Source: Acidimicrobiales bacterium
GTDB lineage: Bacteria; Actinomycetota; Acidimicrobiia; Acidimicrobiales; MedAcidi-G1
NCBI GenBank assembly: GCA_014240365.1
Contig: JAAZXC010000005.1
Location: 1-53,811, forward strand
Length of the DNA: 53,811 bases
Reading direction: 5' to 3'
Part shown: positions 4,571-20,756 of the stretch, one piece after another
Position numbering within the stretch: position 1 is the stretch's first letter
Layout of the letters: each line of letters begins with the position of its first letter
Made by a program: the position numbers and the translations under genes
Notes under the pieces: model-generated
What the model saw: only the letters and a program-made list of their open reading frames with translations
The model's database searches: none
Told to the model about the DNA's origin: nothing

Positions 4571-4580
4571 CTGGACGTGA

Positions 4581-4611: not shown

Positions 4612-4631
4612 ACTACGTCAGGAGTTGGGGA

Positions 4632-5711
4632 TCAGCCGAGTGAACCGACCACCCCTTCGACGAATACGTCCATGCTGAGCATGGTGCCGTCGTCGAGGAC
4701 GTCACCTGCCGCCACGTAGAGGCTGCCGTCCTGGGCGTTGATCGGACCCTGGAACGGGTGGAAGGAACCGTCGATGATCTGCTGCCTGCGCTCAGCGACC
4801 GCCGCCTTCACGGCTGCGTCGACATCGGAAGCGATGGGTGCCAGGTCGACGACGCCGTCGGCCATCGAACCCCAGTAGTAGCCACCCTCATAGGTGCCGT
4901 CAATGGCCTGCCCGATGATCTCGGCGTAGCGCGGACCCCAGTCCCAGACCGGAGCGGTCAGGTGTGCCGCCGGCGCATGTGCGCTCATGTCGGAGTTGTA
5001 GGCAACCCAGCGGGCTCCTGCCGCTTCGGCCTTCTCGCCGGCCGCAGTGGAGTCCTGGTGCATGGCAATCACGTCGGCACCCTTGTCCAGCAGGGCCTGG
5101 GCGGAATCGCCCTCAACCACCGGATCGAACCAGGTGCTTGTCCAGACCACCTCGACCTGGGCATCGGGGTTGGTCTCCAGCACGCCGAGGGTGAAGGCGT
5201 TGATGCCTCTGATCACCTCAGGGATCGGGAATGCGGCCACGTACCCGATGAGGTTCGAAGAGGTCGCAGAACCGGCGACCATGCCGGACAGGTAGCGGGG
5301 CTCGTACATGCGGCCGAACGAATTGCCGAAGTTGGTCCCGTTGGCCTTGTAGCCCGACACGTGGTCGAACACGACGTCCGGGAACTCCTCGGCCAGGGCC
5401 TCCATGTCGTCCATGTAACCGAACGAGGTGCCGAAGATGACGTTGAATCCCTGACCGATGAAGTCACGGGCGTGGTTGCCGAAGTCGGCGGTGCCCTCCG
5501 GGACGGTCTCGACGAATGCTGTCTCCACGCCGGTCTCGGCTGCGGCCGCCAGACGGCCCTGATTGTGTGAGTACGTCCAGCCGGCATCGCCGACAGGTCC
5601 CACATAGATGAATGCCGCCTTGGTCGAATCGTCATCGTCGGATCCGCAGGATGCGGCGACGAGCGAAAGGCCCAGGACGACGGCCAGCAGGCCGAAAAGA
5701 CTACGTCTCAC
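4632..5711 (-). CDS. BMP-family substrate-binding lipoprotein (nucleoside/purine-type)
   Basis: A 359-residue extracellular binding protein. The GTG at 5711 is chosen because GGGAG lies about 8 nt before it and because it directly starts a lipoprotein signal peptide: VRRSLFGLLAVVLGLSLVAA then SC at residues 21-22. The Cys is followed by an acidic GSDDDD tether. The mature part begins KAAFIYVGPVGDAGWTYSHN, the hallmark N-terminus of the basic membrane protein/Med family (BmpA, TmpC, NupN). These bind nucleosides and related purines. Upstream in-frame codons have no SD and would bury the signal peptide. It heads the ABC operon and follows the purine catabolic genes on the same strand, so it is the likely uptake component for their substrate. 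Confidence 0.9.
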   Translation of the reverse strand: MRRSLFGLLAVVLGLSLVAASCGSDDDDSTKAAFIYVGPVGDAGWTYSHNQGRLAAAAETGVETAFVETVPEGTADFGNHARDFIGQGFNVIFGTSFGYMDDMEALAEEFPDVVFDHVSGYKANGTNFGNSFGRMYEPRYLSGMVAGSATSSNLIGYVAAFPIPEVIRGINAFTLGVLETNPDAQVEVVWTSTWFDPVVEGDSAQALLDKGADVIAMHQDSTAAGEKAEAAGARWVAYNSDMSAHAPAAHLTAPVWDWGPRYAEIIGQAIDGTYEGGYYWGSMADGVVDLAPIASDVDAAVKAAVAERRQQIIDGSFHPFQGPINAQDGSLYVAAGDVLDDGTMLSMDVFVEGVVGSLG

Positions 5712-5807
5712 TTTGTTCTCCCTCTGGCCGAACCGGAACGGACCCCGATGGTCCTGGACACCCGGGCACGGCGCAGTTCGCAGCATGCCACATGGGGACG
5801 GGAACCG

Positions 5808-5841
5808 CCTGACCGCGGCCCGCATGCAGGCCGCGGTCAGG
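5808..5841 (-). terminator. Stem-loop terminator overlapping the stop of the MTH1187-like gene
   Basis: Perfect 13-bp stem (arms 5808-5820 and 5829-5841) with an 8-nt loop CGCATGCA. The upstream arm contains the TGA stop (5837-5839) of the small gene on the minus strand. No U-tract follows, as is common in high-GC actinobacteria. It likely ends the catabolic operon and separates it from the transporter operon. Confidence 0.6.
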
Positions 5842-6091
5842 CGACGGTGAGTTGCAGCGAGACCCGGGTGGCACCGTTGGCGATGGCCGCCCGGACCACC
5901 GCTTCCACGGTGTCCAGCACCGTCCCGGAGTCCCCCCTGAGTGCTGTACCGAACGGCCCCACCTCGACATTCAGTCCGGCTGATTCGGCCACGGCTATGG
6001 CCGCCCGTACGTGCGGGCCGGGCGCACCCTCCACGAAGGGCTCGATGGTGAACTCGGCTGCTATCTCCACATCGCCATCATGACCCATCAC
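5837..6091 (-). CDS. MTH1187/YkoF-type thiamine-binding family small protein
   Basis: An 84-residue protein matching the MTH1187 family (Thiamine_BP, formerly DUF77) in length and pattern. It begins with strand DVEIAAEFTIEPF, then has AIAVAESAGLNVEVGPFGTALRG and ends in a helix plus final strand ATRVSLQLTV. Members form ferredoxin-like oligomers and bind thiamine or its pyrimidine moiety, but many have unknown ligands. It lies 21 bp after the 8-oxoguanine deaminase-like gene, as the last member of the catabolic run before a strong hairpin. A role in binding a pyrimidine- or purine-like intermediate is conceivable but inferred only from position. Confidence 0.7.
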   Translation of the reverse strand: MMGHDGDVEIAAEFTIEPFVEGAPGPHVRAAIAVAESAGLNVEVGPFGTALRGDSGTVLDTVEAVVRAAIANGATRVSLQLTVA

Positions 6092-6112
6092 CGCAGTCGG
6101 TGCGTACGCCGT

Positions 6113-7411
6113 TCAGGCCTCCCAGAGGCGGCGGGAGCGCTCGGCCAGATCGCGGTGGGCGGCCGCAAGGTCGGTGCCGACCACCTCCCCGTCGGCGACC
6201 ACGGCCCGGCCCTCGACGAAGAGGTGCCTGACCCTGCGATCCGGACCCAGCACGAGGGCGGTGAGAGCATCGCCCATGTCCCCCAGGTCACCTCCCGGCC
6301 AGACGGCCAGGTCGGCTCTCATGCCGACCTCCATCGATCCCACGTCGTCAACGCCCAGGCATCTGGCACCGCCGAGTGTGCCCATCTCGACCACATCGGC
6401 CGGCATGAGGGCGTCCGGACGGAGTTCCCGGAGTCGGGCCGTGTAGAGGGCCTGGCGCATCTCGGCGAACAGGCCTCCCACCTCGTTGGAGGCAACGCCG
6501 TCCACGCCCAGGCCCACAGGGCAGCCGGCGACCCTCAGATCGGTGACCCGGCACATGCCGGCCGCCAACCGGGCATTGGAGGAGGGACAGTGGGCCACGC
6601 CGGTGCCGGCGGACCCGAGTCGGGCCATCTCGTCGTCGCCTATGTGGATCCCGTGGGCCAGCCACACGTCGTTGCCCACCCAGCCCCACTCGTCGAGCAT
6701 CTCGACAGGTCGGCGGCCAAACCGCTCCAGGCAGTGCTGCTGCTCCTGGACCGTCTCGCAGAGGTGGGTGTGGAGGCGCAGCCCGTGGCGTCGGGCCAGC
6801 TCGGCGGACTCCACCATCAGCTCGGGGGTGACCGAGAAGGGACTGCACGGCGCCACGGTGACATGGACCATCTCGCCGTCGTGGTGGCGGGCGATCACCG
6901 ACTCCGTGGAGGCCAGGATGGCGTCGCGGTCCTCCACCACATGGTCAGGTGGCAGCCCGCCCATGCTCTCCCCCAGGTCCATCGACCCCCGGGAGAGGTG
7001 CAGTCGGATGCCGACCTCGCGTGCGGCGTCCACGATGGCGTCGAACACCGTGTCATCGCCACGCGGCACCAGGTAGTGGTGGTCCGATGCCGTTGTACAG
7101 CCGGTGGCAGCCAGCTCGCCCAGCCCCACGAGGGCAGCGGCCCGCACGTCGTCGACCGAGAGTCGACCCCAGACCGGGTACAGCTCGACCAGCCATCCGA
7201 AGAGGTCGCACCCGACGGCTCGGCCCCGGGTCATCCACTGGTACAGGTGGTGGTGGGTGTTGACCAGGCCGGCGGTGACGATGTCGCCGTCGCAGCGGAC
7301 CACCTCGTCGCCCGGCTCGGAGGCAATGGTCCCCACTCCCACGATCCGGCCGTCGGCGATGGCCACGTCACCCGGGTGACGGGCACCACGCAGCACCAGT
7401 CGGCGGCTCAT
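6113..7411 (-). CDS. 8-oxoguanine deaminase-like amidohydrolase (cyclic deaminase, COG0402)
   Basis: A 432-residue amidohydrolase-superfamily deaminase. An N-terminal beta-domain is followed by TAGLVNTHHHLYQWMTRG (metal HxH at residues 53-55), TTASDHHYL, APCSPFSVT, LHTHLCETVQEQQ, LAHGIHI, VAHCPSSNARLAAG and GVDGVASNE, which supplies the catalytic Asp. This combination is typical of 8-oxoguanine/isoxanthopterin deaminases and their hydroxyatrazine-hydrolase relatives. The product with 8-oxoguanine would be urate. ATG 7411 is preferred over GTG 7426 because the beta-domain begins directly after it. Context among xanthine dehydrogenases strongly supports a purine substrate. Guanine or another aminopurine remains possible. 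Confidence 0.85.
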   Translation of the reverse strand: MSRRLVLRGARHPGDVAIADGRIVGVGTIASEPGDEVVRCDGDIVTAGLVNTHHHLYQWMTRGRAVGCDLFGWLVELYPVWGRLSVDDVRAAALVGLGELAATGCTTASDHHYLVPRGDDTVFDAIVDAAREVGIRLHLSRGSMDLGESMGGLPPDHVVEDRDAILASTESVIARHHDGEMVHVTVAPCSPFSVTPELMVESAELARRHGLRLHTHLCETVQEQQHCLERFGRRPVEMLDEWGWVGNDVWLAHGIHIGDDEMARLGSAGTGVAHCPSSNARLAAGMCRVTDLRVAGCPVGLGVDGVASNEVGGLFAEMRQALYTARLRELRPDALMPADVVEMGTLGGARCLGVDDVGSMEVGMRADLAVWPGGDLGDMGDALTALVLGPDRRVRHLFVEGRAVVADGEVVGTDLAAAHRDLAERSRRLWEA

Positions 7412-7474
7412 GCCCACCGATCCCACAGCACAGGCCTGTTCTTCACGCCGACCAGCCTCGCAGCATCGGTCGGC

Positions 7475-8476
7475 TCACGGGGTCCAGTCAGCGAACGTGT
7501 CGATCATCAGGCGTACGTCGGGGCCCAGTGGGTACAGGATCGGGCAGGTGCAACCATCGGCCATGTACCCGGCCACCTTCTCCCGCACCTCGTCGACCGT
7601 GCCCGCCGCGCAGATCATCTGCACGATGTCGTCTGGTACCAACTTCGAGGCGGCCTCGACCTGGTCATGGGTGGCAGGCCAGGTCAGCACCCGGCCGACC
7701 GCTTCCAGCAACGACTCCGGCACGCCGGAGGCCTTCATGATGTGCGGCTGCTGTCCCAGGTACTGGGTGACCATCATCCTGGCTCCGTCCAGGGCCTCGG
7801 CGCGGGTCTCGGCCACCGAGCAGACCACCAGTTGGGGCCGGTCCAGGTCGTCCAGCGACCGGCCCGCCCGGGCCGCCCCATCGGCCAGGCGGTCCATTGC
7901 CCGCCGGTTGTACTCGGGCGACACCAGGTAGTTAAGGACCACGCCGTCGGCGATCTCACCGGTCAGTTCCAGCATCTTGTCGCCGGTAGCGCCGATGTAG
8001 ATCGGGACGTCCTTGGGTCGGCGCTCCTGGTACACGTAATCCAGCTCGACGCCGTCGAGGTGCACGAACTCGCCGTGGTAGGTAACCGTCTCGTCAGCCA
8101 GCAGGGCCCGGCAGGCCTCCACGGTCTCCCGGATGGCCAACAGTGGCCTACGGCGATCAACGCCCACCTTGGATGCCAGCGGCTCCCACCAGGCGCCGAT
8201 GCCCAGGATGATCCGCCCCGGTGCCAGGTCGTCCAACGTCGAGAATGTGGATGCAAGCCGGGCCGGGTTGCGGGTCCAGCAGTCCACGACACCGGAGCCG
8301 ACCGTGATCGTCTCGGTGTTGGCGGCAATCGCCGCCATGGGCACGACGGCATCGCGCACGAGGCGCGAATCGGCCTGCCAGACGGCCTCGAAGCCGCGCT
8401 CCTCGGCGTACCGGGCGTACTGGATCGCCTCCGGTATCGGATGGGCGTCCTGCAGGTAGATGGCCAGTCGGGTCAT
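7475..8476 (-). CDS. Luciferase-like (LLM-class) flavin/F420-dependent oxidoreductase
   Basis: A 333-residue TIM-barrel protein of the bacterial luciferase-like family, nearest in pattern to methylene-tetrahydromethanopterin reductase-like F420-dependent enzymes. Visible blocks include [50 protein letters not shown] and [21 protein letters not shown]. The start has GGTGAGGAA just upstream. It is embedded between the SsnA-like and 8-oxoguanine deaminase-like genes (34 and 63 bp gaps). RutA of pyrimidine degradation belongs to the same superfamily, so a ring-opening or reductive step on an N-heterocycle is plausible, but neither cofactor nor substrate is proved. A CofC gene elsewhere in this window shows that the organism likely makes F420. 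Confidence 0.75.
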
Positions 8477-8510
8477 CGGTTCCTCACCTTCTGGAAGTCG
8501 TCGTCAGAGT

Positions 8511-9569
8511 TCATGCGTCGTCGATCCGGCGGTGCAGGCGCACCGCCTCCTCGGCGGCCCGGGCCCTGATCTCGTCGGGGTCCACCCGGGTGGGGCGTCC
8601 GTCGACCAGCACCAACTCACCGTCGACCTCGACCGTGAGCGGCCCCACGCCCGTGGTGAAGGCCAGGCGCCACGGGTCCATGTCCGCGTACGACCAGGTC
8701 ACCCGGTCGGAACGGGCCTCCGGGAAGAGGTCCCACCCAGTCGCCAGCCACCCCCAGGCCGTCTCCGGTGAGGCGGTCACGTCATTCTCCCGTTGGCGCA
8801 CGTAGGCCAGTCGGAACTCGTCGAGCATGTCGGCACCAATGCCGTCGGAGCCCAGCGCCACCGGGTTGGCAAACCGGGCGGGGCGGGCGTAGCCGACGGC
8901 GTTGTTCATGTTGGACCGCGGGTTGTGGACCATCGTCCCGGCCAGGCCGTGGTCGTCGGGAAGGTGGACACCGTGGACGAGCAGCCAGTCGTCGGCGGCC
9001 AGGTCCCGGAGCCGGTGCAGCGCGTCAGCGTCCCCGGGCCCCTCGGCGACGTGCACGTGGACGCCCACGCCCATCTCCACAGCAAGGCCGGCGGCAGCCT
9101 CCAGGGTCCCGTCGGTGCAGGTGAAGGCCGCGTGCACGCCGACCATCCCACGACCCCCGTCGCGCAGGAACCGTTCGTTCTCCGCCAGGCCCTGGAGTGC
9201 CCCATCGGCTCCGTGCCGATCGGTGACCCCGTAGGCACAGTTCACCCGGATCCCCACCTCGGCACAGGCATCGGCAATGACCGTCAGCGAGCCCTCGATC
9301 GCCTCCGGTGACTCGTGGTGGTCGATCACCGCCGTGCAACCCCGCTCGAGGGCCTCCAGGGCACCGAGCATCGCCGACCATCGGATCGACTCCAGGTCCA
9401 GCGCCCGGTCCAGGCGCCACCACACCATCTCCAGGATCTCGACGAAACCGGACGGGGTACGCGGCGGTGCCGGCATGCCGCGGGCCAGCGCCGAGTAGAG
9501 GTGATGGTGCGCACAGACCAGGCCCGGCGTCTGGTTCGAGGCCAGGCCTGATCCGACGTCAGCCGGCAT
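8511..9569 (-). CDS. SsnA-like amidohydrolase, short at the N-terminus
   Basis: A 352-residue amidohydrolase whose ATG overlaps the stop of the fused xanthine dehydrogenase gene (ATGA). It carries TPGLVCAHHHLYSALARGM (metal HxH near residue 21), IDHHESPEAIEGSL, VHVHVAEG, LLVHGVHL, MVHNPRSNMNNAVG and GSDGIGAD. HESP, NPRSNMNNAVG and LYSALARG are characteristic of SsnA, a predicted aminohydrolase found beside selenium-dependent molybdenum hydroxylases. SsnA proteins are usually about 440 residues. This one lacks most of the N-terminal beta-sandwich strands before the HxH motif, and the only upstream coding room lies inside the previous gene. Whether it remains active, or borrows the strand from a partner, is unknown. 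Confidence 0.8.
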   Translation of the reverse strand: MPADVGSGLASNQTPGLVCAHHHLYSALARGMPAPPRTPSGFVEILEMVWWRLDRALDLESIRWSAMLGALEALERGCTAVIDHHESPEAIEGSLTVIADACAEVGIRVNCAYGVTDRHGADGALQGLAENERFLRDGGRGMVGVHAAFTCTDGTLEAAAGLAVEMGVGVHVHVAEGPGDADALHRLRDLAADDWLLVHGVHLPDDHGLAGTMVHNPRSNMNNAVGYARPARFANPVALGSDGIGADMLDEFRLAYVRQRENDVTASPETAWGWLATGWDLFPEARSDRVTWSYADMDPWRLAFTTGVGPLTVEVDGELVLVDGRPTRVDPDEIRARAAEEAVRLHRRIDDA

Positions 9570-12142
9570 CAGACTCCACGTCCGTCCCATTCGGCCCAGT
9601 TTTCCTGCTGGCCGGGAGCGGCCATCGGCAGGCTGTGACGCCACTCGCCGTCGTGGGCGTGCAGGGCTGCGGCCACGGCCCCGGCCGTCGGCACCAGACC
9701 GATCTCGCCTACGCCTTTGATGCCGTAGGGCGAGTCAGGCTGTGGCGATTCGATAAGGCGCACGTCGACCTCCGGCATGTCCTTGGGGCGGATGATGCCG
9801 AGGCTGCGGAGGGTCTCGTTGCGAGGCCGGGCATCGGCGTCGGCCGGGAATCCCTCGGTGAGGGCGTAGCCGAGCCCCATGTGGACTGCCCCTTCGACCT
9901 GGCCCTCGCAGAGCATCGGGTTGACTGCCCGGCCCACGTCGTGGGCGGCCACCACCAGGTCCACGTCACCTGTCTCCGGATCCAGGACCACCATCTGGGC
10001 GGCGTATCCGAATGTGGAATGGATGATCGGGTTCTCCACCCCTTCGCTCATCGAGTTGGTCCAGTCCACCCGGTACTCGCCCTCGTAGTCGACGCCGGTC
10101 CGACAACCGTCGGCAATGGCGACCCGGCAGGCATCGGCGACTGAGCCGGCCCCCATGAGCGTCCCGCGGCTGCCGGTGGTCTGGCCGGCTCCCAGTTCTC
10201 TGGTGGTGTCAACGATCACGTCGACCTGGTCGGGGTCCACGCCGAGTTCCTCGACGGCCACCTGTACGACCACGGTGTGGATGCCCTGGCCCATCTCGGT
10301 CCAGCAGTGCCGGACCTCGATCCGTCCGTCGTGGCGAAAATGCACTACAGCCCTGGCTATCTCCTTGAAACCGTTGCCGAGACCGGAGTTCTTGAGGCCC
10401 AGACCCAGGCCGACCGGTAGGCCGCCGGCCACCGCGTCGTCGTAGGCCTCCTTCACGTTGTCCAGGCAGGCCCGGGCGCCGAGGCAGCCATCATCCATGA
10501 TCTGGCCGGGACCCCAGACGGCACCGGGCGTGATGACGTTGCGGCTCCGGATCTCCCATCCGGATATCCCCACCTTCTCGGCGAGGCGGTCCATGACACC
10601 CTCCATGGCGAACTGGGCCTGGTTGGCACCGAAGCCCCGAAATGCCCCGCAGACCGGGTTGTTGGTCCTCACCGCCGTGGCCTCCACGTCGATGGTGGGC
10701 AGCATGTAGGGGCCGCTGGCGTGTCCGGCCGCCCGCTCCAGGACCTTCATTCCCACAGATGCGTACGGACCCGAATCGCCGATCATCCGGGCCCAGAGGC
10801 CGGTCAGCATCCCTTCGGCGTCGCAGCCCGCCCGGTAGGCCATCCGGATCGGATGGCGCTTGGGGTGCATCAGGAGCGATTCCTCGCGCGACAACGTGCA
10901 CTTCACGGGCCGCTCCAGCAGCCAGGCTGCCAGAGCCGTGTGGGCCTGGTTGGACATGTCCTCCTTGCCGCCGAAGGCCCCACCATTGGACACCAGTTCG
11001 ACGGTTACCCGGTCAGTGTCGACGCCGAGCACCGACGCGATCTGGTTGCGGTCGTCCCAGACGCCCTGCCCGCCGGAGTAGACGTACAGTCCACCGTCAC
11101 CTGCAGGCACGGCGAGGGTGGACTCGGGCTCCACGAAGGCGTGCTCAACGCGCTGGGTCTGGAAGACCTCGTCGACGACGTGGGCCGAGCCGACCAGGGC
11201 GGCCTCGACGTCGCCGCGGGCGTACGTCGACACCGAAAGCACGTTTCCGTCCAGTTCCCAGACAGCGTCCTCGTCAGCCGTAAGGGCCACCACAGGGTCG
11301 CTGTAGACGGTCAGCGGCGCCACCTGGACATCGATCAGCGTCGCCGCCCGACGGGCGGTTTCCCGGTCATCGGCCACGACCACGGCCAGCACGTCTCCCA
11401 GGTAGGAGGTCCGACCACCCTCAGGGATCATCACCGGCCAGTCCGTGTGAATGATCCCCACCCGGTGCTTCCCCGGTATGTCGGCGGCCGTGAGCACCCG
11501 CTGCACGCCGTCGACGGCTTCTGCTGCCGTGGTGTCGATCCGCACCACGTCGGCACGGGCGTGGTCGGCGAAGCGGAGCGCTGCGTGCAGCAGGCCCTCA
11601 GGCGACATGTCGTCGATGAAGGGGCGGTCTCCGAGGCTCAGCTCGGTGGCCTCCACCTTCACCACGCTGGTCCCGATGCCGCCGCGGGGCATGGCCACCG
11701 GGATCTCGCCCGATGCAAGGGATTCGACTGCATCCAGAATCTTCACGTACCCGGTGCACCGGCAGAGGTGGGCGCCCAGGTGACGGGACGCATGGTCACG
11801 GGTCAGGGCGGTGCCCTTCTTGTCCACGAGGGCCTTGGCGCGCATGACGATGCCCGGCGTGCAGAAGCCGCACTGCAGGGCGCCATGTGCGGCGAAGACA
11901 CTGGCGTAACGTTCCCGCTCAGCGTCAGGCAGGCCCTCCAGGGTCGTGATCGAGCAACCTTCGGCCTTCTCCATCGACGTCTGACAGGCGATCCTGGCCT
12001 TCCCGTCGACCAGCACGGTGCAGCAACCGCACTGACCCGACGGAGCGCAGCCGTCCTTGGGCGAGGTGACGCCCAGTTCGTCGCGCAGGGCGGCCAGCAG
12101 GTGGGGGTGGTCAACGGAGGCATCGACCGGCCTCCCGTTCAA
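9569..12142 (-). CDS. Fused 2Fe-2S/molybdopterin xanthine dehydrogenase-like enzyme, selenium-dependent XDH type
   Basis: An 857-residue single chain. Residues 1-150 form the two [2Fe-2S] domains (C32, C38, C41, C53; then CGFCTPGIVMRAKAL and HLCRCTGYVKILDAVE). The remainder is the Mo-cofactor domain with GAFGGKEDMSNQAH, CGAFRGFGANQAQ and KGVGEIG, whose Glu is catalytic. Fe-S plus Mo domains without an FAD domain, and next to ssnA, match the selenium-dependent xanthine dehydrogenase family (XdhD-like). The start is uncertain. The first standard start is TTG at 12142, but the conserved first strand reads ITSFELNGRPV, and a strong GGGGGAAGGG stands just before an ATA codon at 12157. Purine hydroxylation is likely; true selenium dependence cannot be judged here. 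Confidence 0.85.
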   Translation of the reverse strand: MNGRPVDASVDHPHLLAALRDELGVTSPKDGCAPSGQCGCCTVLVDGKARIACQTSMEKAEGCSITTLEGLPDAERERYASVFAAHGALQCGFCTPGIVMRAKALVDKKGTALTRDHASRHLGAHLCRCTGYVKILDAVESLASGEIPVAMPRGGIGTSVVKVEATELSLGDRPFIDDMSPEGLLHAALRFADHARADVVRIDTTAAEAVDGVQRVLTAADIPGKHRVGIIHTDWPVMIPEGGRTSYLGDVLAVVVADDRETARRAATLIDVQVAPLTVYSDPVVALTADEDAVWELDGNVLSVSTYARGDVEAALVGSAHVVDEVFQTQRVEHAFVEPESTLAVPAGDGGLYVYSGGQGVWDDRNQIASVLGVDTDRVTVELVSNGGAFGGKEDMSNQAHTALAAWLLERPVKCTLSREESLLMHPKRHPIRMAYRAGCDAEGMLTGLWARMIGDSGPYASVGMKVLERAAGHASGPYMLPTIDVEATAVRTNNPVCGAFRGFGANQAQFAMEGVMDRLAEKVGISGWEIRSRNVITPGAVWGPGQIMDDGCLGARACLDNVKEAYDDAVAGGLPVGLGLGLKNSGLGNGFKEIARAVVHFRHDGRIEVRHCWTEMGQGIHTVVVQVAVEELGVDPDQVDVIVDTTRELGAGQTTGSRGTLMGAGSVADACRVAIADGCRTGVDYEGEYRVDWTNSMSEGVENPIIHSTFGYAAQMVVLDPETGDVDLVVAAHDVGRAVNPMLCEGQVEGAVHMGLGYALTEGFPADADARPRNETLRSLGIIRPKDMPEVDVRLIESPQPDSPYGIKGVGEIGLVPTAGAVAAALHAHDGEWRHSLPMAAPGQQENWAEWDGRGV

Positions 12143-12153
12143 CTCGAAGCTCG

Positions 12154-13140
12154 TTATGGCCCTTCCCCCTTCGGCTCAGCGCTGGACTCCACGTTGTCAT
12201 CAAGGGCCGCACGGACACCGGCAGGAACCTCCGGCCCCCGCTGGGCGGTGATCCGACCGTAGACCTCGGGCCTGCGGTACCTGTGGAAGTCGAACAGCGT
12301 CCCGGTGTAGCCGGCGCAAAGGTCCAGGTCCACCTCAGCCACGGCCAACTCGTCACCGTCGGTGGTGCACAGTGCGGCGATCTCGCCCGATGGGGCAATG
12401 ATGGCGCTCTCCCCCAGCAGGGCGCACCCCTCCTCCTCGCCGGCCTTGGCCACGCCGACGACCCACATGCCGTTCTGGTAGGCGCCGGACTGCAGGACGA
12501 GGTGGTTGTGGAATCCCTGCAGGCGGTCCTGGGCAGGATCCGGGGCGTAGTGGATAGGCGTGTTGTATCCGATGAGGGCCAGCTCGCACCCCTGGAGTCC
12601 GAGCACCCTGTAGGTCTCAGGCCAGCGGCGGTCATTGCAGATAGCCATGCCGACAACCCCGCCGAACGCCGCGTGCACGGCGAAGCCGTCGCCCGCCTCG
12701 AAGTAGTACCGCTCCAGGTGCTGGAAGGCCCGCCACGGCTCGTGCTCGGAGTGGCCCGGCAGGTGCACCTTGCGGTACCGGCCGACGATCGAACCGTCCC
12801 GCTCGACGAGGATCGCCGTGTTGTAGCGGTGGCCGGCCGCCGTCAGCTCTGCATAGCCGAGGTGGAACCCCACCCCCAGGCGCCTGGCCTCGTCGAAGAG
12901 GGGTCGGGTATCCGGGCCCGGCATCTCGGTCTCGTAGAAGTGGTCGGCGTCGGCCAGGTCGTCCACCCACCACCTGGGAAAGAAGGTGGTGAGGGCCAAC
13001 TCGGGGAACACCACCAGGTCGCAACCTGCCGCAGCGCCGGAGCGGAGCAGCGCCACGAGCCTCTCCACCACCTCGGGCCGGGCGTCGGCCAGCTGGATCG
13101 GACCCATCTGCGCTGCGCCCACCGTCAACACCCGACTCAT
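12154..13140 (-). CDS. Carbon-nitrogen hydrolase, N-carbamoyl amino acid/ureidopropionase-like
   Basis: A 328-residue nitrilase-superfamily enzyme. The Glu-Lys-Cys triad is visible: FPELALTTFFP (Glu near residue 47), GRYRKVHLPG and MAICNDRRWPETYRVLGLQG. The ICNDRRWPE and GYNTP blocks are those of N-carbamoyl-D-amino acid hydrolase and related beta-ureidopropionases, which split a carbamoyl group to amine, CO2 and ammonia. ATG 13140 is chosen because it begins the first strand (RVLTVGAAQMG) and overlaps the stop of the preceding M20 gene (ATGG/TGA arrangement, 4 bp). In this context it probably releases ammonia from a ureido product of purine or pyrimidine ring opening. Confidence 0.85.
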   Translation of the reverse strand: MSRVLTVGAAQMGPIQLADARPEVVERLVALLRSGAAAGCDLVVFPELALTTFFPRWWVDDLADADHFYETEMPGPDTRPLFDEARRLGVGFHLGYAELTAAGHRYNTAILVERDGSIVGRYRKVHLPGHSEHEPWRAFQHLERYYFEAGDGFAVHAAFGGVVGMAICNDRRWPETYRVLGLQGCELALIGYNTPIHYAPDPAQDRLQGFHNHLVLQSGAYQNGMWVVGVAKAGEEEGCALLGESAIIAPSGEIAALCTTDGDELAVAEVDLDLCAGYTGTLFDFHRYRRPEVYGRITAQRGPEVPAGVRAALDDNVESSAEPKGEGP

Positions 13141-14435: not shown

Positions 14436-16738
14436 CGGTCGGCTCCCGCCGAGGCGTCGGCCAGGGCAATGTCTGCAGGGCGTACCGGTACACGGGCCAG
14501 CTCCAGGCCTGTGGCGTTGCGCAGGGCACCGACCACAGCGGCGGTCGAGGAGATGCAGGGCGGCTCCCCGATTCCCTTGGCCCCGAAGGGTGCCCCCGGT
14601 TCAGGCTGTTCTATGAGGGCAGCGATCTCCACCGGTGGCATGTCCAGGGCGGTTGGCACCAGGTAGTCGGTGAACGATGCGTTGCGGATCCGGCCGTTAT
14701 CGACCAGGACCTCCTCCATGACGGCCAGCCCGACGCCCTGCGCGGCACCGCCCTCCAGTTGCCCGATGGCCTGGACCGGGTTCAGCACCCGTCCCACGTC
14801 CTGGGAGGTAGTCAGCTCCACGACCCGTACAAGGCCCAGGTCGGGGTCCACGTCGACGATCGCCCGGTGGGCTGAGACGGCGAACGAGACGTGGGCATCG
14901 CCCTGGCCGTCGTCATCGAGCGGCGACGTCGGGGCGTGGCGATAGACGACGTCGGCCGACAACGGTTCCGCTGTGACTTCGGCCAGGTCCACGGACACAC
15001 TGCCGGAGAGCGACTCCACCCGACCCTCCACCAGGACCAGATCATCGACCGGTACGTCGTGGGTCACCGCCACGCGGGCCACGACGGCGGCCCGAACTTC
15101 CTCGCAGGCCTTCTGCACGGCACCTCCCGACATCCATGACTGGCGGCTGGCCGAGGTGGAGCCGGCCGACCCGATGCCCGTGGTATCGACCGGAGCGAGG
15201 ACCACCTCGTCCACCCCCAGCACCTCGCTTGTGATCTGGCCGATCAGGGTCACGAAACCTTGTCCCACCTCGGCGCAGGCACACGTGATCGTCGCCACGC
15301 CGTCACGCAAGTCGCACCGGGCGGCCGACGAATCGTCGAAGCCCTCCGAGAACATGAGATTCTTGAACCCGACGGCCAGCGCCTCGCCACGCACCACGTG
15401 GTCGGCGTCGGCGGTACGTCCGGCACCGCCCGGCCTGGTCATGGGCTCGTCGGACCTCATGGCTGCCGACGGATGTTCCGCGCACGTCCGGATGACCTCG
15501 GCCACAGGGAGCGTGCCGGTCAACACCTGTCCGGTGATCAGGCGGTCACCGGGTGCCAGCGCGTTCTTCAGCCGGAGGTCGATCGGGTCCATATCCAGGG
15601 CGGCGGCCAGGCGGTCCATCTGGGCCTCGTGGGCCATGCAGGTCTGGACCGCCCCGAATCCCCGCATAGCCCCGCAAGGTGGGTTGTTGGTACGCACCAC
15701 CACGCCGTCGATGTCGGCCGACGGAACCCGGTAGGGCCCGGCCGCGAAGCAGGTGGCGTTGGCGATCACCGCACCGCTGGAGGAGGCGTATGCCCCACCG
15801 TCGAGGAGCAGTCGGGCTTCCACCCGGACGAGCGTGCCATCGGACTCGGCGTGATGGCGGTACCACATGCGGGCCGGGTGCCTGTGCACGTGACCGTGGA
15901 AGCTCTCGCTTCGCGAGTAGACCATCTTCACCGGCCGGCCGGTGTGCATGGCGAGCATGCAGAGGTGGACGTGCAGGCTGAGGTCCTCCCGGGCACCGAA
16001 CGCCCCGCCAACGCCGGCCAGGGTCAGCCTGACCAGGTCGGGGTCCATGCCCAGGCAGTCGGCCACCTGGTCGCGGTCCACGTGGAGCCACTGGGTGGCG
16101 ATGAACAGGTCGACTCCGCCGTCGGCGGCCGGAACGGCCAGCCCGGACTCCGGTCCGAGGAAGGCCTGGTCCTGCATGCCCACCTCGTAGGTGCCCTCCA
16201 CCGTCACCAGGCCCTCACGATCGGCGGCCAACGGGTCGCCGTGGCGCAGGTGGATACGACGGATGACGTTTCCGTCCGGGTGGATCGGCGTGGCCGTCTC
16301 CGCCCGGGACGGGTCCACGAGCGGCTCGGTCACCTCGTACTCGACCTGTATGGCGGCGAGTGCCTGACAAACGGTGTCGGGATGGTCAGCGGCCACGATG
16401 GCCACCGGTTCGCCCTCGTAGCGCACCACATCGCCGGCCAGCACCGGCTGGTCGAGGTGCTCCAGGCCGAAGGTGGCCACCCCGGGCACGTCGGAATGCG
16501 TCAGGACGGCGTGCACGCCGGTGAGGGCCACCGCCGGTCCCACGTCAATCGACAAGATCCGGGCCGACGGGTGGGGCGACCGCAGGGTGCCGCCCCAGAG
16601 CATCCGGTCGTGCCGAAGGTCGCTGGAGAAGGCGAAGGCACCGGTCACCTTGGGGGTCGCGTCGGGGCGCTGGACGCTCTCCCCGATCCCGGAGGGGCGG
16701 GTCCGCCCACGAGTCGGCGTGGCCTGAACCTCGCTCAT
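14432..16738 (-). CDS. Xanthine dehydrogenase-family molybdopterin-binding subunit
   Basis: A 768-residue large subunit of a three-component Mo hydroxylase. ATG 16738 overlaps the stop of the 2Fe-2S subunit gene (ATGA) and precedes GESVQRPDATPKVTGAF, the usual entry to domain I. Mo-cofactor motifs are GVGGAFGAREDLSLH, PPCGAMRGFGAVQ and the C-terminal PFGAKGIGEPP with the catalytic Glu. With the following two genes it forms the medium/small/large set typical of bacterial xanthine dehydrogenase or carbon monoxide dehydrogenase-like enzymes. The AYXCSFR motif of CO dehydrogenase is absent, favouring a purine or other heterocycle substrate. This is the second, structurally different Mo hydroxylase of the same operon. 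Confidence 0.9.
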   Translation of the reverse strand: MSEVQATPTRGRTRPSGIGESVQRPDATPKVTGAFAFSSDLRHDRMLWGGTLRSPHPSARILSIDVGPAVALTGVHAVLTHSDVPGVATFGLEHLDQPVLAGDVVRYEGEPVAIVAADHPDTVCQALAAIQVEYEVTEPLVDPSRAETATPIHPDGNVIRRIHLRHGDPLAADREGLVTVEGTYEVGMQDQAFLGPESGLAVPAADGGVDLFIATQWLHVDRDQVADCLGMDPDLVRLTLAGVGGAFGAREDLSLHVHLCMLAMHTGRPVKMVYSRSESFHGHVHRHPARMWYRHHAESDGTLVRVEARLLLDGGAYASSSGAVIANATCFAAGPYRVPSADIDGVVVRTNNPPCGAMRGFGAVQTCMAHEAQMDRLAAALDMDPIDLRLKNALAPGDRLITGQVLTGTLPVAEVIRTCAEHPSAAMRSDEPMTRPGGAGRTADADHVVRGEALAVGFKNLMFSEGFDDSSAARCDLRDGVATITCACAEVGQGFVTLIGQITSEVLGVDEVVLAPVDTTGIGSAGSTSASRQSWMSGGAVQKACEEVRAAVVARVAVTHDVPVDDLVLVEGRVESLSGSVSVDLAEVTAEPLSADVVYRHAPTSPLDDDGQGDAHVSFAVSAHRAIVDVDPDLGLVRVVELTTSQDVGRVLNPVQAIGQLEGGAAQGVGLAVMEEVLVDNGRIRNASFTDYLVPTALDMPPVEIAALIEQPEPGAPFGAKGIGEPPCISSTAAVVGALRNATGLELARVPVRPADIALADASAGADR

Positions 16739-17232
16739 GAGCGGGCCTCCCGCCGCATGGCGGCCGCCCGGTCCACGGCTTCCAGGATCCGGCCGTAGCC
16801 GGTGCACCGGCACAGGTTGCCGCTGATGGCCTCGCGCACGGTCAGGTCATCAGGATCCGGCTCCTCACACAACAGGGCATCCACGGCCATGAGCAGCCCC
16901 GGGGTGCAGAAGCCGCACTGGACTGCGCCGGCCTCCACGAATGCCCGTTGCACGTCGGCCAACGGTCCGACCTCGCCATCGGCATCCGACAGACCCTCCA
17001 CGGTGACGACATCGCGGTCGGCGGCCGCAGCAGCAAGCACCAGGCAGCTGCAGACCAGGTCGCCGTCAAGGCGGACCGAGCAGGACCCGCACTCCCCCTC
17101 CTCGCAGGCGTTCTTGGATCCAGGGAGGCCCAGGCGTTCCCGTAGGACGAACAGGAGGCTCTCACCGGCATGACTGTCGACCACCTCCACAGGCCGGCCG
17201 TTGACGGTGAGGCGGTACGGATCAGTCCTCAC
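16735..17232 (-). CDS. Xanthine dehydrogenase-family [2Fe-2S] subunit
   Basis: A 165-residue iron-sulfur subunit. The plant-type ferredoxin cluster is bound by C43, C48, C51 and C63 (NACEEGECGSCSVRL...CSC). The second, four-helix cluster domain has QCGFCTPGLLMAVDALL and NLCRCTGYGRIL. Length is normal for this subunit. It overlaps the FAD subunit gene upstream by 4 bp and the Mo subunit gene downstream by 4 bp, so the complex is probably made stoichiometrically. Electrons would pass from the Mo site through the two clusters to FAD. Confidence 0.95.
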   Translation of the reverse strand: MRTDPYRLTVNGRPVEVVDSHAGESLLFVLRERLGLPGSKNACEEGECGSCSVRLDGDLVCSCLVLAAAAADRDVVTVEGLSDADGEVGPLADVQRAFVEAGAVQCGFCTPGLLMAVDALLCEEPDPDDLTVREAISGNLCRCTGYGRILEAVDRAAAMRREARS

Positions 17233-18092
17233 GCCGCCTCCTCTCCGACCATGCCGAAGGCCCGGACCAGGGCGCGTCGTGCCATCACCCCGACGACGTG
17301 CCTGCGGTAGGCGGCCGTTCCCCGGTGGTCGTCGATGGGGCGGGTGGCATCGGCCACCATCTGGCCGAACCGATCCACATCGCCGGCCGTGGGCGGTCGT
17401 CCGCCCTCCCAGTCAATACGGCCGCCGATCATCGCCTCGGCCTCGGTGGCCCGCAACGGAACCGGGGCCACGGATCCCAGGCCGACCCGGACCGTTCGTC
17501 CAGGAGGGTCGACCACGAGGGCGAGGGAGGCCACCGAGATGACCATGGCATTGCGGGGCCCGACCTTCATGAACTCCTGGGGGCCGTGCAGAACCGGGAC
17601 CCTCACGGCGACGATCAGCTCACCGGCTGACAGGGCGTTGGCCTTGACGCCTACGACGAACTCATCGAGGGGAAGATGCCTTCCGCCGTTCGAGGAGCGG
17701 AGTTCGACCACGGCATCCAGGGCGACGAGCACCGGCAGCATGTCACCGGCCGGCGACGCCGTGGCCAGGTTTCCGCCGATGGTGCCGGTGGCCCGGATCT
17801 GCGGTGAACCGACCGTACGGGCGGCCTGGCCAAGGGCCGGTGCGAGGGCGCCGAACCCGGGATCGGCCATCTCCGCATAGGTCATCCCGGCGCCGATTCG
17901 CAGGACGTCCCCCTCGCGGGTCCACCCCCGAAGCTCAGGGACCCGGTCGATCGCCACCACGTTGCCGATGCTGAGGTCCCCCCGGTTCACCTGGACCATG
18001 AGATCCGTGCCCCCGGCCAGGACGATCGCTGTCGGATCAGCGGCCAGGGCCGCACAGGCATCGTCCAGCGTGAGTGCGATGGTCATCGTCAC
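17229..18092 (-). CDS. Xanthine dehydrogenase-family FAD-binding subunit
   Basis: A 287-residue FAD subunit. Flavin contacts are visible in VLAGGTDLMVQVNRGDLSIG (about residues 20-39) and in RATGTIGGNLATASPAGDMLP (T-x-G-G-N flavin-binding loop). The C-terminal CO_deh_flav_C-like domain follows from about residue 170. ATG 18092 has GGGGTG about 5 nt upstream. It is the first gene of the long minus-strand run and is divergent from a small HTH regulator gene across a 73-bp gap that holds a direct repeat. Expression of the whole pathway therefore probably starts here. Confidence 0.9.
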   Translation of the reverse strand: MTMTIALTLDDACAALAADPTAIVLAGGTDLMVQVNRGDLSIGNVVAIDRVPELRGWTREGDVLRIGAGMTYAEMADPGFGALAPALGQAARTVGSPQIRATGTIGGNLATASPAGDMLPVLVALDAVVELRSSNGGRHLPLDEFVVGVKANALSAGELIVAVRVPVLHGPQEFMKVGPRNAMVISVASLALVVDPPGRTVRVGLGSVAPVPLRATEAEAMIGGRIDWEGGRPPTAGDVDRFGQMVADATRPIDDHRGTAAYRRHVVGVMARRALVRAFGMVGEEAA

Positions 18093-18122
18093 CCCGCAAT
18101 GCTCCCGCCCGACAGCCCCCGC

Positions 18123-18159
18123 GTCAACATTTTGTCAACCTTATTACCTTGGCTAGGGT
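18123..18159 (+). promoter_or_regulatory. Leaderless promoter of the HTH gene with GTCAAC direct repeats
   Basis: TTGTCA (18132-18137) and TAGGGT (18154-18159) are separated by 16 bp. The GTG of the regulator gene lies 6 nt after the -10, so its transcript should be leaderless. GTCAAC occurs at 18123-18128 and again at 18134-18139, exactly one helical turn (11 bp) apart, and the second copy overlaps the -35. On the minus strand the same bases read GTTGAC and lie upstream of the xanthine dehydrogenase operon. This is a plausible operator for both directions; the binding protein is inferred. Confidence 0.55.
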
Positions 18160-18165
18160 TCTGGC

Positions 18166-18534
18166 GTGAACCGGCCCGTGCATCCCCTGGTGGAGGCGAT
18201 CCAGCCGATAGCCGATGCCCTCGGCTGCACCATCCTGACCCTCGGAGAACTGACCGAGTCCGACCTACCACTTGAATGGGAGGGGGAGGTGGTCGGTGGC
18301 CTCAGGCGACCCGACCTGCACTGTGCCCTGGACACACTGCTGACAGCGGCCGAGCACGAGGTCGGGCTCCCGTGCGTCGAGATGGACCGGTCCCAGAAGC
18401 AGGGAACGGTTGCGCTGCTGAACGACTGGGGGGCGTTCACGCTCCGGAAGTCCGTCGAGGACGTAGCCGAGGCCCTCGGGGTGAGCCGCTTCACCGTCTA
18501 CAACTACCTGGAGCGTGCCGAAGCCGGCGATTAG
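18166..18534 (+). CDS. Small HTH regulator (YheO/DauR-type C-terminal HTH_22 domain)
   Basis: A 122-residue protein. The N-terminal part (PLVEAIQPIADALGCTILTL) resembles the start of a small sensory domain. The C-terminus, LRKSVEDVAEALGVSRFTVYNYLERA (about residues 93-118), is a helix-turn-helix of the type that ends YheO/DauR-like regulators. A full YheO protein is about 220-240 residues, so this one has a shortened sensor region. It is divergent from the purine catabolic operon and begins at a GTG directly after a -10 box, so it is likely the local regulator. An amidase gene follows 48 bp downstream on the same strand. Confidence 0.7.
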   Translation: MNRPVHPLVEAIQPIADALGCTILTLGELTESDLPLEWEGEVVGGLRRPDLHCALDTLLTAAEHEVGLPCVEMDRSQKQGTVALLNDWGAFTLRKSVEDVAEALGVSRFTVYNYLERAEAGD

Positions 18535-18582
18535 GCACCCCGACCCGGGCTGCCATTGCTGCCACCGCTACGGTCCAGCACC

Positions 18583-20058
18583 ATGGACGACGCCACCCAG
18601 CCCGATAACCGACAGGCCAACCACGACGACGAGCTGGCCCGGGTCGACGCCGTCGGGCTGGCCTCCATGATCCGCTCCGGAGACCTATCGGCGGTTGAGG
18701 CCGTGCAGGCCACGATCGACCGCATACAGCGCCTCGACGGAGACCTGAACGCGGTCATCCACCGCCAGTTCGAACAGGCACTGGAGCTGGCAGCCTCCGA
18801 CGACCTCCCTGCGGGGCCGTTCCAAGGCGTTCCGATGCTCATAAAGGACCTTTGGGCCGAGGAGGCCGGCCAGCCCCACCACGGCGGGATGCAGGCTCTC
18901 AAGGACGTCGGGTTCACCGCCGACTCCGACTCAAACCTCGTCATCCGCTACAAACAGGCGGGCTTCATCAACGTGGGTCGCACCAACACGCCGGAGCTGG
19001 GCCTCGTCGCCACAACCGAACCCCACGCCTACGGCCCCACGCGCAACCCCTGGAACCCCGACCACAGCCCCGGCGGATCCTCCGGCGGGGCCGCCGCAGC
19101 GGTGGCCTCAGGCATGGTCCCGGCCGCCAACGCCAGCGACGGCGGCGGCTCCATCCGCATCCCGGCAGCCATGTGTGGGCTGGTCGGCCTCAAGCCATCC
19201 AGGGGTCGGATCTCGCAGGGCCCAAAGGAGGAATGGGGCTTCTCCTGCCAACATGCCCTGACCCACACGATGCGCGACACCGCTGCGATCCTGGACGCCT
19301 GCGCCATTCCCTTTCCCGGGGACGGCGTGGTGGCCCCCGACCACGGACGGCCCTACGCCGACAGGGTCGGCTGGGATCCGGGACGACTCCGCATAGGCCT
19401 GATGCCGGACAACCACCGGATACCCACGCATGCCGACTGCGAGGCGGCCACCCGCAGGACAGCCGACCTGCTGGCCGACATGGGCCACGACGTGGTCGAG
19501 TCACGGCCCGAGGCGTTCGGACAGATCGGGGAGATGAAGGAGCTCGTCTGGGCCTTCAACCTGAACTGGGGCGTGGGAGCCGTCGTGAGCATCGAGACCC
19601 TGGGTGCCAGGCTGGGACGCACAATCACGGCCGACGACGTGGAGCCCGGCACCTGGTTCCTCGCCGAGCGCGGCCGCGGGATCGCCGCTCCCGACTACGC
19701 CAGAGCACAGGCCGTCATGGGGTCATGGCGCAGGGCGATGGCAACCTGGTGGGAGGACTTCGACCTGCTGCTCACCCCGACCACGGCCGATCCGGCGCCC
19801 CGCCTTGGCCAGCTCACCCCAACCCCCGACGACCCGGTCCGTGGCTCCAAGGGATCCATCCCCTACTCGGTGTTCACCTCACCGTTCAACGCCTCGGGCC
19901 AACCAGCGATCTCGCTGCCGCTCGGCTCCTCTGACGGCCTACCTGTCGGGGTGCAGTTGGTCGCCGCCTATGGACGCGAGGACCTGCTCATAGCGGTCGG
20001 GGCACAGCTCGAGGCCGAGGTGCGCTGGTCGCAGAACAGGGCGCCCATCCACGCCTGA
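18583..20058 (+). CDS. Amidase signature family hydrolase
   Basis: A 491-residue amidase. The Ser-cisSer-Lys triad is complete: Lys88 in GVPMLIKDLW, cis-Ser166 in SPGGSSGGAAAAVASG and nucleophile Ser190 in DGGGSIRIPA. The family covers GatA, aryl-acylamidases, allophanate hydrolase and 6-aminohexanoate-cyclic-dimer hydrolase. Length and C-terminal pattern suit a general amidase rather than GatA, and no GatB or GatC gene is near. ATG 18583 is chosen; a TTG nine codons upstream is possible. It follows the HTH regulator and so probably belongs to the purine/N-heterocycle programme, releasing ammonia from an amide intermediate. Substrate is unknown. Confidence 0.85.
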   Translation: MDDATQPDNRQANHDDELARVDAVGLASMIRSGDLSAVEAVQATIDRIQRLDGDLNAVIHRQFEQALELAASDDLPAGPFQGVPMLIKDLWAEEAGQPHHGGMQALKDVGFTADSDSNLVIRYKQAGFINVGRTNTPELGLVATTEPHAYGPTRNPWNPDHSPGGSSGGAAAAVASGMVPAANASDGGGSIRIPAAMCGLVGLKPSRGRISQGPKEEWGFSCQHALTHTMRDTAAILDACAIPFPGDGVVAPDHGRPYADRVGWDPGRLRIGLMPDNHRIPTHADCEAATRRTADLLADMGHDVVESRPEAFGQIGEMKELVWAFNLNWGVGAVVSIETLGARLGRTITADDVEPGTWFLAERGRGIAAPDYARAQAVMGSWRRAMATWWEDFDLLLTPTTADPAPRLGQLTPTPDDPVRGSKGSIPYSVFTSPFNASGQPAISLPLGSSDGLPVGVQLVAAYGREDLLIAVGAQLEAEVRWSQNRAPIHA

Positions 20059-20067
20059 GATGGGGGA

Positions 20068-20235
20068 AGGGAGCACCCACACGCTGTTGACGATCGACTC
20101 GACAGCGGTGCGTCGCTCCACCCGGCGCCCATCAGAGGGAAGGTGGAATCCCACCTCCAGCTCGGCGACGGTCACCACGGAGATGGCCACATCGTCCTCA
20201 TCCAGGAGGATTGAATCCAGGTCACAGCCTGCTCG
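20068..20235 (-). pseudogene. Remnant of a VapC-type PIN-domain toxin
   Basis: The 180-bp gap between the amidase and phosphoribosyltransferase stops encodes, on the minus strand, the stretch DEDDVAISVVTVAELEVGF followed by LPSDGRRVERRTAVESIVNSVWVLP. This matches the second strand, the catalytic Glu helix (VAEL) and the following helix of VapC toxins. The N-terminal start with the first catalytic Asp is missing, and the reading runs into unrelated sequence after VWVLP, so the last two acidic residues are lost too. No vapB antitoxin gene is adjacent. It is a decayed fragment of about 56 residues, showing that a toxin-antitoxin locus once sat here. Confidence 0.6.
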
Positions 20236-20237
20236 CC

Positions 20238-20756
20238 TCAGGCGTCGAGTACCGCCGTACCGGCAGAGGAGAGGTCCACGACCGGTGGCTCGGTTGACCA
20301 CGGAAAGTTGATCCACCTGTCCGTGTAGTGCCAGACGTACTCGCAGTCGACCGTCGACTGCGGCTTCTGGTACAGCACTGCGGAACGCACCTCGGCGACC
20401 TGGGCCAGCGCCGTCTCACGCACCAGAGCCAGGGTGTGTCCGGTGTCGGCCACATCATCGACGATGAGAATGCGCTTGTCGCCGAGATCCACCCAGTCCA
20501 CGTACGGAGGGAGGATCACCGGGATGTCCAGCCGCTCGTCCACGCCGGTGTAGTACTCGACGTTCATCACATAGAGGTTCTTGACCGCCAGGGCGTAGCC
20601 CAGCGAGCCGGCCACGAAGAGTCCACCGCGCGCTATGCACAGGATCATGTGGGGCCGGTAGCCATCGTCGGCGACCATCCTCGCCAACTCGCGGACCGCC
20701 GTCCCGTAGCCGGTCCAGTCCATCTCCTCCCGCTCGGCCACCGCTTCTCCCATCAT
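20238..20756 (-). CDS. Purine-type phosphoribosyltransferase
   Basis: A 172-residue type I phosphoribosyltransferase. The PRPP-binding loop RILIVDDVADTGHTL (about residues 95-109) has the two acidic residues and the DTG turn. The hood region GYRPHMILCIARGGLFVAGSL precedes it. Such short proteins (hypoxanthine/xanthine/guanine type) salvage purine bases to nucleotides. Two ATGs occur in tandem at 20756 and 20753, and a GTG with GGGAGA just before it lies four codons further in, so the start is uncertain. It lies beyond the amidase and the toxin remnant, oriented toward them. Its position beside a purine catabolic island suggests a linked salvage or substrate-balancing role. Confidence 0.8.
   Translation of the reverse strand: MMGEAVAEREEMDWTGYGTAVRELARMVADDGYRPHMILCIARGGLFVAGSLGYALAVKNLYVMNVEYYTGVDERLDIPVILPPYVDWVDLGDKRILIVDDVADTGHTLALVRETALAQVAEVRSAVLYQKPQSTVDCEYVWHYTDRWINFPWSTEPPVVDLSSAGTAVLDA

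Follow-up and report, generated by a model that had tools for sequence, protein, structure and literature searches.

How might a bacterium that encodes two different molybdenum hydroxylases side by side, and no uricase of the PF01014 family, break down urate? The question is raised by a contig of an Acidimicrobiales bacterium (JAAZXC010000005.1 of assembly GCA_014240365.1; C148 in our numbering), which was analysed whole and is referred to here as the window (53,811 bases, from a genome of 2.2 Mb in 192 contigs that is 95% complete). A first-pass annotation, made from the letters alone, had described a purine catabolic island at 4632-20756 and had proposed an alternative route of urate breakdown involving two molybdenum (Mo) enzymes. 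The window's genome has no match to the uricase family PF01014, as that annotation had supposed, and the two enzymes probably do have different jobs. Gene content, conservation, co-occurrence, mutual exclusion and a predicted fold together make it probable that this cluster of the little-studied Acidimicrobiia specifies the reductive urate pathway in an F420-type form. Such a route is not new in kind: its core was described biochemically in 2025, comprising in Escherichia coli and Clostridioides difficile xdhD-ygfM, ygfK or uacX, ssnA, hyuA, ygeW or uacY, ygeY and ygeX (PMC12507026).

The genes that would carry the pathway are read from the minus strand, in the order given here, and are followed by those of an importer:

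17229-18092, minus strand: flavin adenine dinucleotide (FAD) subunit of xanthine dehydrogenase (XDH); XdhB model 175 bits, below its cut-off of 310; PF00941
16735-17232, minus strand: 2Fe-2S subunit of XDH; XdhC model 161 bits, below its cut-off of 217; PF01799
14432-16813, minus strand: Mo subunit of XDH; pucD model 815.8 bits, over its cut-off of 783.65; homology begins at residue about 42, so that the true start is probably near 16700
13137-14435, minus strand: M20 carbamoylase, putative 3-ureido decarbamoylase; PRK09290.1-3, 454.4 bits, over the cut-off of 452
12154-13131, minus strand: N-carbamoyl-D-amino-acid hydrolase (D-carbamoylase) of the nitrilase superfamily, putative 2-ureido decarbamoylase; 394 bits to 8i99
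9569-12142, minus strand: fused 2Fe-2S/Mo enzyme with no FAD domain (XDF), putative urate-to-yanthine reductase; TIGR03311 over its full length, 823.7 bits
8511-9569, minus strand: compact SsnA of 352 amino acids, putative dihydro-yanthine hydrolase; PRK07203, 263 bits, partial model, cut-off 444
7475-8476, minus strand: Mer-like protein of the LLM superfamily (PF00296), putative F420H2-dependent yanthine reductase; closest solved chains are Mer
6113-7426, minus strand: 8-oxoguanine deaminase; PRK08203, 549.8 bits, over the cut-off of 532

In the proposed pathway, hypoxanthine and xanthine would be converted to urate by the three-subunit XDH, and 8-oxoguanine would be brought to urate by the deaminase. 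XDF, run as a reductase, would then turn urate into yanthine (2,8-dioxopurine), which the Mer-like protein (hereafter LLM) would dearomatise with F420H2 in place of YgfK. Hydrolysis of the dihydro product by compact SsnA would give ureidomethyl-hydantoin, which a D-hydantoinase/dihydropyrimidinase encoded elsewhere would open to 2,3-diureidopropionate; from this the D-carbamoylase and the M20 enzyme would strip the 2-ureido and 3-ureido groups, respectively, instead of YgeW/UacY and YgeY. The resulting diaminopropionate would be converted to pyruvate by a pyridoxal-phosphate (PLP) enzyme, either the one we label PALPb or, in other members, YgeX. Family models recovered every gene that the first-pass annotation had named in the island (two Mo enzymes, SsnA, deaminase, M20, nitrilase, LLM and importer), though several of the roles it had suggested change. 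It had tentatively placed the start of the route in the deamination of 8-oxopurines; the deaminase is there, but 8-oxoguanine deamination would act as a feeder only. It had also looked to the amidases for ring opening, a step that we assign to SsnA, with the carbamoylases acting afterwards on the ureido groups.

The step that sets this cluster apart is the one ascribed to LLM, and the evidence on it begins with the protein itself. A sequence search of the PDB gave 11 hits with the F420-dependent enzyme Mer first, at 150 bits; another of these, 9hav, is titled only as a luciferase family protein and is an F420-dependent glucose-6-phosphate dehydrogenase according to the fold search. An AlphaFold model of LLM (predicted local distance difference test score, pLDDT, 89) superimposes on Mer with template-modelling (TM) scores of 0.82-0.91, and ranks 1-29 of the fold search are all F420 enzymes, with flavin mononucleotide (FMN) monooxygenases ranking lower. 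On sequence and predicted fold, LLM resembles the Mer-type F420-dependent reductases. The window's own genome encodes CofD, which establishes the presence of one F420-biosynthesis gene only. As for YgfK, only the generic later part of TIGR03315 was matched in that genome, UacX not having been searched for.

To place LLM in a wider context, 148 genomes of the order were surveyed, of which 56 carry an XDF orthologue (66-85% identity, some as contig-end fragments, the window's genome included) and 92 do not; 93 genomes match XDF at E 1e-40, and the 37 with distant paralogues only (at most 41% identity) were not counted. An LLM orthologue at least 67% identical is found in 38 of the 56 XDF genomes and in one of the 92 others (40 genomes match at E 1e-90, G016 with its 53% paralogue being left uncounted). 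In the single exception, G119, LLM is encoded close to the end of a contig that also carries PALPb. A YgfK-like protein, recognised by the N-terminal half of TIGR03315, is present in 16 of the 56 and none of the 92, among the matches listed, which extend down to 144.7 bits; weaker ones may exist. The representative of this group has 622 amino acids and scores 437 bits against TIGR03315 (cut-off 835.3), mainly over the first 400 positions, with a ferredoxin-like end. The complete model was discarded as a genome-wide marker, being misleading: 117 of the 148 genomes match it.

No genome has both the LLM orthologue and the YgfK-like protein, and only two XDF genomes have neither (G063 and G138, 78% and 74% complete). 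Were the two genes independent, the probability of no overlap would be 4e-12, a figure that ignores the relatedness of the genomes. The same picture emerges from individual loci. Forty fetched neighbourhoods (up to 20 kb) and 25 named loci make up 65 non-duplicate loci, after two duplicates were dropped; these were scored with identity cut-offs of our own setting (LLM 60%, YgfK 38%, YgeY 40%, M20 and D-carbamoylase 55%). LLM occurs in 40 of them, YgfK in 15 and both in none, and the YgfK loci contain no LLM match at E 1e-8. On a tree of XDF built by a quick method (LG+G4; 66 rows, of which 60 were labelled, with genome-level matches used to add four labels and confirm another manually), the LLM and YgfK labels require at least five changes, and the family codes f7 and f53 each contain both kinds. 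Repeated swapping of LLM and YgfK without coexistence is what would be expected if both do the same job.

These results bear directly on another account of LLM, in which a purine or pyrimidinedione ring would be opened by LLM acting as a flavin monooxygenase, with the carbamoylases finishing the work. RutA opens the uracil ring in this way. LLM belongs to the superfamily PF00296, and the organism looks aerobic, to judge by a cytochrome P450 match in the window. The nearest sequences and folds are, however, F420-dependent reductases and dehydrogenases rather than FMN monooxygenases, the protein with which LLM is exchanged, YgfK, is a reductase, and in part of the Chloroflexota loci LLM lies near genes for F420 biosynthesis and for NADPH-dependent F420 reductase. 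We give the monooxygenase account very little credence, and the proposal in the first-pass annotation that the luciferase-like enzyme opens the ring is probably wrong: LLM occupies the YgfK slot.

An F420-type luciferase-family protein next to SsnA in Chloroflexota has been suggested as an alternative yanthine reductase (PMC12507026), so that the F420 yanthine reductase is already predicted in print for that phylum. A record titled Chloroflexi contains an LLM orthologue at 58% identity, and among 400 Chloroflexota genomes 57 have LLM at 56-70% identity (59 match at E 1e-80, two at 45% not being counted). The neighbourhoods of 41 of the 57 were fetched. In 17 of these ssnA is near LLM; 19 have cofD and cofC upstream of LLM at a distance of a few kb, and 16 of the 19 have ssnA as well. 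Six loci were read gene by gene: three run ssnA, npdG, cofE (followed by small extra genes in two of the loci), cofD, cofC and LLM, and in the other three the ssnA end is absent. One representative of each family in these loci was confirmed with NCBIfam models. In six rows compared, LLM from the Chloroflexota ssnA clusters is 58-69% identical to that of the window (L174 was excluded from the alignment because of an internal stop). The Mo enzymes of the 41 loci vary, nine being of the E. coli XdhD type and two, instead, 51-52% identical to XDF, with YqeB present in six. LLM thus pairs with SsnA beside different Mo enzymes, in part of the loci along with genes for the synthesis and reduction of F420. 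The Chloroflexota clusters feature XdhD (9/41) and F420-biosynthesis genes (19/41), whereas the window has a TIGR03311-type enzyme, the D-carbamoylase and the M20 enzyme; F420 is predicted for both. L187-L192 and other Chloroflexota loci carry LLM orthologues up to 70% identical with no ssnA in the stretch, and LLM without ssnA may reflect a second use of the protein.

The Mo enzyme that would precede LLM is conserved well beyond the window. The closest named locus, L071, comes from an Acidimicrobiales metagenome-assembled genome (MAG) whose isolate name contains 'ALOHA' and has an XDF 87% identical to that of the window; other close loci belong to Acidimicrobiia or Actinomycetota MAGs, one titled Candidatus Microthrix. 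The host of the window is thus perhaps marine. Across the order the core of M20, D-carbamoylase, XDF, SsnA and LLM genes is met again, complete or partial, which puts the existence of a cluster far beyond chance; in many loci some of these genes are absent or relocated. In three more distant loci (L087, L089 and L113, from Rhodospirillales, Rubrivivax and Acidobacteria records), a 50% identical XDF adjoins SsnA and a YgfK-like gene.

For Clostridium sporogenes, PMC12990295 reports that XdhAC reduces urate to yanthine. Like that enzyme and C. difficile xdhA5, XDF is predicted to have its iron-sulphur and Mo parts in one chain. In C. difficile, growth on urate depends on YqeB (PMC11448449). A search for YqeB, as the first-pass annotation had advised, gave no match in the window's genome at E 0.001, and YqeB exceeds its cut-off in seven of the 148 genomes, all of them among the 56 with XDF. 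Selenium dependence of the Mo hydroxylase was rejected as a general feature on account of this narrow distribution.

XDF retains E394 and R470, which align with substrate residues of classical XDH such as the bovine enzyme; Q and N occupy these positions in E. coli XdhD. E606 of XdhD was not used as a marker residue, the alignment being gappy there. The XDH-like residues would suit a xanthinase-type scheme, in which XDF would convert urate and xanthine into one another, SsnA would work as an amidohydrolase on a ring already oxidised, and 4-ureido-imidazole carboxylate would lose its ureido group to the carbamoylases. Such a scheme, however, has no need of LLM or YgfK, of a hydantoinase or of a diaminopropionate lyase, all of which co-occur with XDF, and we hold it to be the least probable of the explanations considered.

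The enzyme placed after LLM in the reductive route, SsnA, is encoded by a gene whose ATG overlaps the stop codon of XDF (TGATG). Its assignment to the SsnA family in the first-pass annotation stands (best models PRK07203/TIGR03314), with the qualification that the protein, at about 350 amino acids, shares 37% identity and the motifs with E. coli SsnA but lacks its N-terminal segment; in two close relatives only four residues precede the motif. The fold of the 352-residue model (pLDDT 87.5) is that of an amidohydrolase, with isocytosine deaminase as its best match (TM score 0.79 by its own length, 0.64 by the target's).

The two carbamoylases would act late in the pathway. The gene first annotated simply as a nitrilase does belong to that superfamily, and more specifically encodes a relative of the N-carbamoyl-D-amino-acid hydrolases (8i99, 6lcg and 1fo6), with an identity of about 60% to 8i99 across 299 residues (E 4e-117). 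It retains the motifs VVFPELAL, YRKVHLPG and AICNDRRW, which we take to supply the Glu-Lys-Cys catalytic residues of the superfamily. It differs from these hydrolases in being placed in a purine cluster. The R configuration at the 2-ureido carbon is said in PMC12990295 to have been proposed; if the carbon is R, a D-carbamoylase is the kind of hydrolase expected, a fit that is supportive, not proof. The best solved matches of the M20 enzyme are to an uncharacterised deacylase/carbamoylase family (354 bits) and then to the N-carbamoyl-beta-alanine amidohydrolase 8c46 (301 bits). The two carbamoylases occur together in 33 of the 65 loci, and five loci with YgeY have neither; L113, whose YgeY-like protein (32%) falls outside these five, also has no M20 or D-carbamoylase match. 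YgeW/UacY and YgeY were not seen among the cluster proteins scanned, no genome-wide search having been made. Representatives encoded near the loci of other relatives score over the cut-offs for YgeX (PRK08206, 286 bits against 276), YgeY (TIGR03526, 411 against 321.5) and the D-hydantoinase HyuA (TIGR02033, 496 against 393).

The remaining steps would be served from elsewhere in the genome. The D-hydantoinase family (E 1e-60) is found in 51 of the 56 XDF genomes and 14 of the 92 others. YgeX-like proteins, present in 20 of the 56 and two of the 92, are missing from the window's genome (TIGR01747, none at E 1e-20). PALPb, found in 45 of the 56 and one of the 92, is a candidate stand-in for YgeX, since one or other of the two occurs in 55 of the 56, both occurring in 10. 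It belongs to a pair of PLP enzymes, PALPb being cysteine-synthase-like and PALPa threonine-synthase-like (L074:15400-16962 and L040:5203-6423), for which PDB searches returned only distant threonine and cysteine synthases; in G054 and G128, which are of the same family as the window's genome, PALPa and PALPb directly follow the importer but are encoded on the opposite strand.

With the pathway of E. coli and C. difficile (PMC12507026) the window's genome has in common an XDH-superfamily Mo enzyme, SsnA and enzymes that cleave ureido groups, along with a PLP enzyme and a hydantoinase, the latter as a contig-end fragment, and its relatives carry YgfK-like, YgeX, YgeY and HyuA proteins. It differs in having LLM for YgfK/UacX, a TIGR03311-type for an XdhD-type Mo enzyme, a compact SsnA, and the D-carbamoylase with a different M20 family for YgeW/UacY and YgeY, and PALPb is commoner than YgeX-like proteins.

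Several observations weigh against a reductive urate pathway here. At the level of family models, XDF falls just under the TIGR03311 cut-off of 830.45, SsnA is a partial match below its cut-off, none of the 148 genomes passes the TIGR03315 cut-off for YgfK, and none passes that of TIGR01747 for YgeX, although one representative passes PRK08206. By their aligned residues, XDF active sites are closer to classical XDH than to E. coli XdhD, and the enzyme could be an ordinary purine oxidase. SsnA is absent from the stretch in 11 of the 65 XDF loci, some of them at contig ends, and from 24 of the 41 fetched Chloroflexota LLM loci; more distant LLM paralogues (50-55%) also exist, one of them the 53% protein in the YgfK genome G016. 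The hydantoinase of the window's genome is a contig-end fragment, although it is over the cut-off in three family relatives, and the sole hydantoinase found in this family has near it another LLM, a gene resembling N-carbamoylputrescine amidase and a methylmalonate-semialdehyde dehydrogenase. It therefore probably lies in a pyrimidine operon; that it is shared between this operon and the urate route is a guess. The genome's own PALPb, on the short contig C4 (L156, 3486-5054), contains an in-frame TAG, due to assembly error or decay. A reductive route that consumes four electrons would be unexpected in apparently aerobic organisms. Uricase, finally, is absent from all 56 XDF genomes and found in three of the 92 others (p 0.29); as its absence does not separate the two groups, it was dropped as statistical support.

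Whilst these points temper it, the F420-type reductive reading remains the probable one. A fuller picture, in which oxygen-exposed Acidimicrobiia possess a complete reductive urate pathway powered by F420H2, with Mer-like, D-carbamoylase, M20 and cysteine-synthase-like PLP stand-ins and with (R)-2,3-diureidopropionate as the natural substrate of the D-carbamoylase, we put forward more tentatively, leaning slightly towards doubt. In the literature searched we found no account of an actinobacterial version with a D-carbamoylase, a compact SsnA and another PLP enzyme. The reading would extend a pathway known from gut and other anaerobes to lineages from seawater, lakes, bog and other habitats, and suggests that it has been rebuilt from other parts, offering alternative enzymes for urate-degrading bacteria. 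The repeated swaps of LLM and YgfK sharpen the case for an F420 yanthine reductase that has so far only been predicted, and provide a concrete test of it. A physiological substrate is also proposed for the D-carbamoylase, which bears on the stereochemical question raised in PMC12990295.

The cluster as a whole spans 976-20756, and the genes that flank those listed above are as follows:

4632-5825, minus strand: PnrA/BMP-type substrate-binding protein; PF02608, 183.6 bits
2993-4570, minus strand: ATP-binding cassette (ABC) ATPase with two ATP-binding stretches; PF00005 twice; NF047930, 451 bits, below the cut-off of 670
1905-2996, minus strand: ABC permease (BPD_transp_2); PF02653
976-1908, minus strand: ABC permease (BPD_transp_2); PF02653; B6-type permease family, 192.7 bits, below the cut-off of 465
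18166-18534, plus strand: small transcriptional regulator of the HTH_22 type, transcribed divergently from the XDH genes; PF13309, 67.8 bits
18583-20058, plus strand: amidase-signature amidase; PF01425, 308.7 bits
20238-20756, minus strand: purine phosphoribosyltransferase-like protein; PF00156; xanthine phosphoribosyltransferase model, 55.5 bits, below the cut-off of 138

The single minus-strand run of the first-pass annotation is therefore unbroken from 18092 to 976, but two plus-strand genes, for the regulator and the amidase, separate the XDH genes from the phosphoribosyltransferase. The importer ATPase and both permeases (976-4570) lie outside the 4632-20756 first assigned to the island. 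Counterparts of the permease at 976-1908 adjoin the cluster in L032 and L033 as well, those of the amidase stand beside it in L031-L033, L042-L045, L056 and L071, and homologues of the regulator occur near related clusters.

These flanking genes raise the question of whether the same enzyme logic is applied to another N-heterocycle, or to an 8-oxo or 2-oxo purine derivative, and not to urate itself. The PnrA-type importer has no assigned substrate, the amidase and the HTH_22 regulator are unexplained, and many relatives have the core with neither a three-subunit XDH nor an 8-oxoguanine deaminase in the stretch. Around several relatives, on the other hand, XDH, 8-oxoguanine deaminase, adenine/adenosine deaminases and the phosphoribosyltransferase point to purines, and we regard a different substrate as unlikely.

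Scans of the window for Rfam families and tRNAs gave no matches. Immediately beside the island, at 20854-24584, are an ImuB-like polymerase (weak matches to DNA polymerase IV models) and ImuA' (NF058630, 125 bits, cut-off 65), a pair that constitutes a mutagenesis cassette and is followed by a SpoU methyltransferase. The cytochrome P450 match (PF00067, 75.8 bits; 33075-34691, plus strand) covers only the later part of a frame of 538 amino acids and suggests oxygen use by the organism. A large sulfatase (PF00884) lies at 39781-42111 on the minus strand, and at 45181-52552 a thiolase, a ChsH2-type OB-fold protein, two acyl-CoA dehydrogenases and a CoA-transferase form a set that looks like one for the degradation of acyl-CoA or sterol side chains.

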